DNA from: Bacteroidota bacterium
Lineage (GTDB): Bacteria; Bacteroidota; Bacteroidia; Bacteroidales; GCA-2711565
Direction: 5' to 3'
DNA length: 64,000 nucleotides
NCBI GenBank assembly: GCA_018816945.1
Contig: JAHIVC010000010.1
Location: 1-64,000, forward strand
Positions within the stretch are counted from its first letter, which is position 1; each line of letters starts with the position of its first letter. A program made the translations under genes and the position numbers. Below, piece by piece: positions 8,506 through 9,595 of this stretch. The notes below the pieces were generated by a model. That model worked only from the letters and a program-made list of their open reading frames with translations, was not told the origin of the DNA and did not search any database.

Positions 8506-9595
8506 TTAGTTATTCCCGAATTCCATTAAGTATGCTTTTATAAAATCATTGATTTCACCATCCATCACTGCCTGAACATTCGAGGTTTCATAACTTGTTC
8601 TCAAATCTTTTACCATTTTGTACGGATGCATCACATACGAACGAATTTGTGAACCCCATTCAATTTTTTTCTTGTTCCCTTCAATAGCTGCCTGAGCTTC
8701 TTTTTTCTTTCTGATTTCGATCTCGTATAATTGAGATTTCAACATTCGCAATGCTTTTTCCCGATTCTGTCCTTGTGATCGTGTTTCCTGACATTCTATA
8801 ATTATTCCACTTGGCTCATGACGTAACCGTACTGCGGTTTCTACTTTATTTACATTTTGTCCGCCGGGTCCACCTGCACGAAAAGTATCCCAACTGATGT
8901 CGGAAACATTGATCTCTATATTAATGTCATCATCCACCACAGGGTAAACATAAACCGAAGCAAATGAAGTATGACGACGATTGGCAGAGTCAAATGGCGA
9001 CAACCGCACCAGCCTGTGTACTCCATTTTCTCCTTTTAAGTATCCAAATGCAAAATCGCCTTCAAACTCAAGTGAAACAGACTTGATGCCGGCTCCATCC
9101 CCTTCGTGATAATCCAATTGATTAACCTTATAATTATTTTTTTCACCCCACATGATATACATCCGCATCAACATCTCAGCCCAATCCTGACTTTCTGTTC
9201 CACCGGCTCCCGGATTGATATTCACAATTGCGCTTAAGCGATCTTCCTCTCCCGAAAGCATATTTTTAAATTCCAAATCCTCAATGATCGTTAGAGTTGC
9301 ATTATATTGTTTTTGCCATTCATCTAAACTACCTTCACCGGCATTATAAAATTCATGGATTACCACCAGATCGTCGTAACTATTTAATGCATTTTGAAAA
9401 ACATTGGTCCACCTTTTTTTTTCATTGATTGATTTCAACACCATTTCAGCTTTTTTGGAGTCATTCCAGAATGCCGGGGCTGAAGTCATCTTTTCTTCTT
9501 CAGCAATAAGTTCTAATTTACGATCGATGTCAAAGAAACCTCCTTAAAGCATCCAATCTTTTCTTTAGAATTTTAATTTCTTCCAACGTGGCCAT
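8506..9595 (-). CDS. prfB: Peptide chain release factor 2, with programmed +1 frameshift
   Basis: RF2 ends translation at UGA and UAA codons. The second reading frame carries the SPF anticodon-like loop ([11 protein letters not shown]) and the catalytic GGQ ([14 protein letters not shown]). The first frame begins with ATG at 9595 and encodes 21 residues ([20 protein letters not shown] then L) before an in-frame TGA at 9532-9530. The site reads AGGAGG TTT CTT TGA C, which matches the spacing of the known autoregulatory site. Slipping one base on CTT joins the 21 codons to 341 more, for 362 residues, a normal RF2 length. Low RF2 levels slow decoding of UGA and favour the shift, which gives feedback control. 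This is not a pseudogene. Confidence 0.95.
9529..9544 (-). promoter_or_regulatory. prfB: prfB programmed frameshift site
   Basis: On the minus strand the order is AGGAGG (9544-9539), TTT, slippery CTT, TGA (9532-9530), C. The Shine-Dalgarno-like hexamer, its 3-nt spacing to CTT and the UGAC context match the classical RF2 recoding signal. Confidence 0.9.

Follow-up and report, generated by a model that had tools for sequence, protein, structure and literature searches.

A hairpin as a possible further element of the RF2 frameshift cassette from Bacteroidota to E. coli

The window, i.e. the whole stretch of 64,000 nucleotides of contig JAHIVC010000010.1 of a Bacteroidota bacterium (order Bacteroidales) that was analysed, carries a prfB gene on its minus strand. 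A short ORF0 is closed by an in-frame UGA and is followed by RF2 in the +1 frame (Table 1). The +1-frame product is RF2 by the model TIGR00020 (prfB), with 486 bits against a cut-off of 370. Direct reading of the minus strand bears out the arrangement AGGAGG-TTT-CTT-TGA-C with the classical 3-nt spacing, which had been described in an earlier note on this DNA, and the coordinates 8506-9595 given there are correct for the whole prfB gene. Neither motif alone is rare: AGGAGG has 16 matches in the window with 15.35 expected, and CTTTGAC has 6 with 8.13 expected. What exceeds chance is the in-register combination of the two at the start of prfB, together with its conservation. As far as can be judged from the sequence, the frameshift signal of the window is real and of the known kind, and the site itself is ordinary.

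Table 1. Elements of the prfB frameshift cassette in the window.
Feature	Position	Strand	Remarks
ORF0 of prfB	9533..9595	-	ATG 9595-9593; 21 codons, then in-frame UGA
SD-like hexamer AGGAGG, internal	9539..9544	-	3 nt 5' of the slippery codon
E-site codon TTT	9536..9538	-	between hexamer and slippery codon
Slippery sequence CTT T	9532..9535	-	slippery codon CTT 9535-9533; P-site CUU would slip to UUU by the known mechanism
In-frame stop TGA and following C	9529..9532	-	TGA 9532-9530; weak termination context
RF2, +1 frame	8506..9531	-	341 aa plus stop
5' arm AAAG of the eroded hairpin	9558..9561	-	stem lies immediately 5' of the hexamer
3' arm CTTT of the eroded hairpin	9546..9549	-	unpaired base 9545 before the hexamer; position by relatives

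It had been claimed that most starts in the window lack a Shine-Dalgarno (SD) sequence, and this holds: an SD core (GGAG, GAGG or AGGA at -16 to -5) precedes 1 of the 47 ORFs called by script (at least 120 aa, ATG starts only); a control stretch further upstream of the same ORFs contains it in 4. The parts of the proposed sequestration of the 16S tail are present as well. A genome search found one bS21 gene (rpsU), and its residue 54 is Tyr, which passages of PMC9976891 describe as redirecting the 16S tail in F. johnsoniae. The 16S tails of five same-order relatives end in CACCTCCTTTCT, the window genome's own 16S being truncated in the assembly. Because SDs are few at starts, bS21 has Tyr54 and the relatives' 16S end in such tails, there is a genuine general puzzle in the retention of a hexamer by an organism whose anti-SD is probably hidden. 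The genome's own rpsU (L001, contig C101, ATG at 9093) has an imperfect SD-like stretch, AAAGAGGT at 9080-9087, separated from its start by a 5-nt spacer; an extended SD of rpsU is reported for many Flavobacteriales (PMC9976891). TGA is the stop of 5 of the 47 longer ORFs in the window, and the demand for RF2 is therefore low, as is also stated for F. johnsoniae in a part of PMC12421855.

The puzzle is not new and is in print (McNutt 2021; Naeem 2024, doi 10.1261/rna.079721.123). Parts of PMC8710568 give AGGAGGUAUCUUUGAC for prfB of F. johnsoniae, count the frameshift in 523 of 726 Bacteroidia genomes, describe the retention of the hexamer and report no obvious fitness loss upon removal of the frameshift from F. 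johnsoniae prfB. Low frameshift efficiency in this species is cited in a part of PMC12421855, which points to Naeem 2024.

In the same-order set, the window's own gene included, there are 57 RF2 loci; genomes G011, G016 and G018 gave RF1-like matches only and were left out. Two loci, L007 and L061, were left out of the site reading: one of the two runs into the end of its contig and the other lacks CTTTGA. All 55 readable sites have CTTTGA, with AGGAGG as the hexamer in 46, AGGGGG in 6, GGGAGG in 2 and CGGAGG in 1. The larger pool comprises 191 frameshift sites with the hexamer, 50 without it and 41 prfB genes without frameshift (L310 and L344 are one site and were counted once); 8 identical 30-mers remain in it, and part of the relatives' sites was taken from among the matches listed. 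As to whether the hexamer is conserved above codon needs, the check suggested by the earlier note, it is so by far: its first codon is AGG in 212 of 240 frameshift sites, against 43 of the 314 Arg codons that these ORF0s have further 5'. A clean hexamer is absent from 50 of the 241 sampled frameshift sites, which is not a frequency, the sample being non-random: genomes whose site had already been read were not added to one part of it, so that hexamer-bearing sites are under-represented in that part, and family f112 was chosen because one of its members lacked the hexamer.

On aligning the sites, an inverted repeat is seen immediately upstream of the hexamer, as in AACGC-6nt-GCGTT-G-AGGAGG, AGCGC-6nt-GCGCT-G-AGGAGG and AAGGC-5nt-GCCTT-G-AGGAGG. 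Its position was scored as the best contiguous stem with the 3' arm ending at each position, at a threshold of -1 kcal/mol or better; an offset of -2 means one free base and then the hexamer. In the Bacteroidia set with one site per family (n = 50), 41 sites have a stem ending at -2 and 42 have one ending at -3, compared with 5 at -1 and 2 at 0; the ends at -3 and -4 are mostly shorter forms of the stem that ends at -2. A stem end at -2 is found in 75% of 147 sites from the class and the order (8% at -1), in 82% of 33 named Bacteroidota loci (9% at -1) and in 12% of 26 prfB genes without frameshift. The grouping of the named loci, 80 in all, relied on record titles rather than on translation of every locus; L119 and L133 lie too near an end, L109, L126, L140 and L170 are not prfB-like by eye, and L144, L173 and L176 belong to other phyla, which leaves 34 Bacteroidota loci (33 long enough) and 37 from Gammaproteobacteria. 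The natural stems have 3-7 bp. An Rfam search of one prfB locus each from E. coli, the present genome, Bacteroides and Halomonas gave no family for the hairpin, its one match being a chance match below the gathering score.

The window is a weak member of this pattern, with the hexamer intact and the hairpin largely eroded. Its own AAAG/CUUU stem has 4 bp only (+0.8 kcal/mol), so that no stable hairpin is predicted next to the SD or the slip site in this gene. The closest relative has identical letters in the hairpin region, and three other readable members of the genus keep the hairpin at -1.6, -5.4 and -5.0 kcal/mol.

The pairing was compared with that in shuffled sites, in which, for each column separately, synonymous codons of one and the same amino acid were exchanged between sites. 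In this comparison, which ignores common descent, the one-per-family set has a mean of -4.13 against -1.73 +/- 0.28 after shuffling (lowest of 1000 shuffles -2.65), and 210 pooled sites shuffled within GC strata have -3.49 against -2.16 +/- 0.12 (lowest of 500 shuffles -2.56). The codons of the two arms are linked: Arg CGN occurs with Ala GCG in 25 sites and with other Ala codons in 3, Arg AGR in 0 and 14, respectively; Glu GAA occurs with T-first Leu codons in 28 and with C-first ones in 0, Glu GAG in 21 and 19. Pairs were also counted in alignments of the CGN and AGR types, from which L053 and L055 were dropped. In the alignment of CGN-type sites (31 sites) 92.7% of the cells are paired against 21-41% in slid versions, and 4 of 500 shuffles are as high, both on cells paired and on the covariation score; two of the five measures lie within the shuffles, namely both-side pair changes (102/500) and further pair types (185/500). 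The AGR-type alignment (22 sites) has 84.8% paired cells against 25-61% in slid versions and is no better than its shuffles (194/500 on cells paired, 168/500 on covariation). RNAalifold applied to the CGN-type alignment prefers pairing of the hexamer with the slippery stretch, with the hairpin only partly kept. This alternative weak fold counts against a simple folding argument; it was given little weight because the ribosome encloses the slippery stretch at the decisive moment. A first crude measure, the fold energy of the whole 33-nt stretch against codon-order shuffles with identical stretches counted once, gave a moderate mean z of -0.83 against -0.14 and was superseded by the position-specific score. 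Taken as a pattern of codons, the data argue that the pairing is kept by linked synonymous changes and is not due to protein or codon bias.

The hairpin goes with the frameshift. A stem of -1 kcal/mol or better at -4 to -2 is found in 170 of 191 hexamer sites, 14 of 50 hexamer-less sites and 9 of 41 prfB genes without frameshift; at -2 kcal/mol or better the counts are 130/191, 10/50 and 6/41. A stable hairpin abutting the SD or the slip site is thus common among the relatives, even at the stricter threshold. Over the whole range from -4 to +4, the non-frameshift genes have a hairpin in 16 of 41. Two of these genes, L309 and L295, carry good hairpins in the usual position (AGCGC..GCGCT, -7.5, and AGCG..CGCT, -3.5, respectively), perhaps remnants of a lost frameshift.

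In the hexamer-less sites a stem is found at a second position, on the place of the hexamer itself. With the threshold at -2 kcal/mol or better, stems that end at +1 to +3 are present in 33 of the 50 sites without the hexamer, compared with 30 of the 191 hexamer sites and 5 of the 41 non-frameshift genes; stems that end exactly at +3 are present in 31, 3 and 4 of them, respectively. Outside f112 such stems are present in L250 and L251 (CGUGCAG:CUGCACG), L307 and L326, and a strong hairpin at the old place is found in L285, L347, L236 and L243. Six of the 50 (L284, L323, L388, L403, L420 and L423) have no hairpin or only one of -0.8 kcal/mol. One of these six, L284 (genome G260), has no clear hairpin and contains in its ORF0 CACCTCCTT, letters identical to the 16S anti-SD tail. 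Free variation of the hexamer among relatives, the outcome which the earlier note had set against its own proposal, is therefore seen in part: the 50 sites lack a clean hexamer, but 43 of them have a hairpin of -2 kcal/mol or better nearby or in its place (ending at -4 to +4), against 12 of 41 non-frameshift genes.

Most detail comes from f112, which is taken as Flavobacteriaceae because its sites match named Flavobacterium sites. Eighty-eight sites were read: 44 with the hexamer, 33 with the frameshift and without the hexamer (AGGCAC in 17, AGGCAA in 7, others in the rest) and 11 without the frameshift. The usual hairpin at -4 to -2 is present in 43 of the 44 and in 6 of the 33. That the hairpin at its usual place substitutes for the SD in this family was considered and rejected, as it mostly accompanies the SD. 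The stem of the hexamer-less sites, such as GCCUU-8nt-AAGGC, ends at +3, on the place of the hexamer; at -1 kcal/mol or better it occurs in 28 of the 33 sites without the hexamer, in none of the 44 with it and in none of the 11 without the frameshift. The variants GCCUA:UAGGC, GUCUA:UAGAC and GUCUAAG:CUUAGAC keep the pairing with both sides changed. At the third bases of the Leu-Leu pair, 29 comparable hexamer-less sites have T-A in 14, A-T in 4 and no pair in 11 (Fisher test on the T and A rows, p 0.045). The hexamer-less sites score -4.27 against -3.21 +/- 0.30 after synonymous shuffling within the group, with 0 of 500 shuffles as low (lowest -4.22); the whole hexamer-less group may represent one or few events. 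A shorter CCTT:AAGG stem ending at +2, in which part of the 5' arm (CCTT) is already in place, is present in 57% of the hexamer-bearing members and is a likely precursor of the hexamer-less stem. In most of the 44 hexamer-bearing sites (within L350-L437) the hexamer could be hidden by a competing pairing such as GCCTT..GAGGT, which may act as a switch or have given rise to the GCCTT:AAGGC stem.

The pattern extends beyond Bacteroidota. In 38 Gammaproteobacteria sites, E. coli included, the mean is -3.68 against -2.45 +/- 0.32 in shuffled sites, with 0 of 1000 as low. Among 37 Gammaproteobacteria sites stems end most often at -3 (62%) and less often at -2 (38%) and -1 (30%), and E. coli strain CFSAN061762 has a stem of -5.2 kcal/mol at -2. 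Single loci of Desulfuromonadaceae and Omnitrophota fit the pattern; the one Akkermansiaceae locus examined does not. An adaptation to the hidden anti-SD specific to Bacteroidota was considered and rejected, the hairpin being present in Gammaproteobacteria too. Frameshifting is reportedly efficient with a minimal E. coli cassette that lacks the upstream part, and the hairpin therefore cannot be essential in E. coli.

We propose that a hairpin on the exit side, next to the SD:anti-SD helix, helps the +1 frameshifting of RF2 and takes the place of the hexamer when the SD is lost; from the sequences compared here, a probability of about 0.6 may be assigned to this reading. In the known part of the mechanism AGGRGG pairs with the 16S tail at the 3-nt spacing and strains the mRNA. 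With CUU in the P-site the hexamer occupies -9 to -4, and the hairpin lies immediately 5' of it. The mRNA leaves the 30S subunit near this place. The hairpin could refold there, at the exit side, 1 nt before the hexamer (0-2 nt in Gammaproteobacteria), and its stacking on the SD:anti-SD helix would add strain, the mRNA being drawn one base outwards. The sequences themselves show the position of the hairpin, its conservation, the synonymous covariation, the tie to the frameshift and the second position at hexamer-less sites; stacking, pulling and stimulation of frameshifting are inferred. At hexamer-less sites the hairpin, ending about 5 nt further downstream and covering the place of the hexamer, would act alone; in many of them an intramolecular helix probably replaces the helix between mRNA and rRNA. 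RF2 cassettes would thus keep a helix at the mRNA exit, in most cases the SD:anti-SD helix with a hairpin as its buttress and in some cases only a hairpin. The two explanations offered by the earlier note, use of the tail by elongating ribosomes or reliance on the slippery codon alone, are incomplete, since the hairpin as a third helper was left out; its interpretation is partly supported and largely in print already. The widest form of our proposal, that the textbook cassette has an overlooked fourth part from Bacteroidota to E. coli, a hairpin stacked on the SD:anti-SD helix and sliding into the place of a lost SD, can be put forward only tentatively, at slightly less than even odds.

The hairpin might instead not pull at all and only insulate or present the hexamer, by blocking upstream pairing with it or premature capture of the 16S tail. 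The stop of the stem one base short of the hexamer and its company with it (170/191 with, 14/50 without) are what such a function would leave, a part of PMC5009743 mentions that competitor SDs are lacking 5' of the SD, and the GCCTT:GAGGT pairing of f112 is of the kind that could hide a hexamer. However, in 33 of 50 hexamer-less sites the hairpin sits on the very place of the hexamer, where there is no need for an insulator, and we consider this explanation unlikely.

The slippery CUU UGA C alone could suffice in Bacteroidota, the hexamer being a relic. The loss of the hexamer from the 50 sampled sites and the six hexamer-less sites without a real hairpin agree with this second alternative of the earlier note. 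So does a result reported for F. johnsoniae in the 2024 work of Naeem, where a site without SD is said to work about as well as the native one; this work reportedly puts the frameshift efficiency at about 7%, raised by a bS21 mutation. Retention of the hexamer far above codon needs speaks against a relic, and so does the excess of hairpins at hexamer-less sites over non-frameshift genes (43/50 against 12/41). A slippery codon acting without any helper is accordingly judged a poor prospect, at about one chance in eight.

If there were the classical signal only, the inverted repeat would be a by-product of the conserved E-R-x-x-A-L peptide and of codon bias. These two do produce a hairpin in about 40-45% of the shuffled sites; the observed share is 82% and the highest shuffled one 58% (1000 shuffles), and the linked codons, the sharp position and the absence or shift of the stem on hexamer loss are not accounted for either. 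This reading is already disfavoured and very improbable. A different function in the prfB mRNA, such as initiation or decay, is hardly credible: the hairpin does lie only some 20-50 nt 3' of the ORF0 start codon, but it is missing from most prfB genes without frameshift (present in 9/41 against 170/191) and keeps a fixed place relative to the hexamer.

In the usual description of prfB, the reference case of +1 frameshifting, the signal is made up of SD, slippery codon and weak stop. To this cassette a conserved hairpin one base from the SD adds a testable part and, if the reading that it helps frameshifting is true, would explain frameshifting in bacteria with a hidden or unused anti-SD. For SD-less sites it offers a simple answer, namely that a helix within the mRNA can replace the helix with rRNA, and annotation programs which seek the SD could find such sites by the hairpin. 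The hairpin is apparently so far undescribed: word searches of PMC12421855 and PMC13245932 gave no RNA hairpin in the RF2 cassette, and literature searches, including portions of PMC6321510, PMC3711429, PMC10885494, PMC5009743 and PMC3639245, gave no description of a natural hairpin at an RF2 site. These searches did not include Naeem 2024 and Baranov 2002, so its absence from print is not established. A passage of PMC10885494 that does not name the bacterial RF2 site speculates that weak hairpins lying upstream at frameshift sites may have escaped attention.

The cassette of the window shares its parts with the autoregulatory +1 programmed frameshift of E. coli and F. johnsoniae prfB: AGGRGG, 3-nt spacing, CUU UGA C and RF2 in the +1 frame. 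In the parts of PMC8710568 and PMC12421855 that describe it, it consists of SD, slippery codon and stop only, to which the hairpin is added here. The closest parallel is an artificial upstream hairpin at CUUUGA, which according to passages of PMC6321510 gave about 60% of the SD effect with E. coli 70S ribosomes and no RF2. It is likewise an intramolecular helix 5' of CUUUGA and raises +1 frameshifting there; its engineered stem is GC-rich and 12 bp long, whereas the natural ones have 3-7 bp and mostly stand beside a real SD. The 5' stem-loops of T4 gene 60 bypassing and of the BYDV shift site are alike in that 5' structure or exit-side refolding is held to promote recoding (passages of PMC5009743). 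They differ in belonging to other genes and other types of recoding, with no SD partner at a distance of 1 nt.
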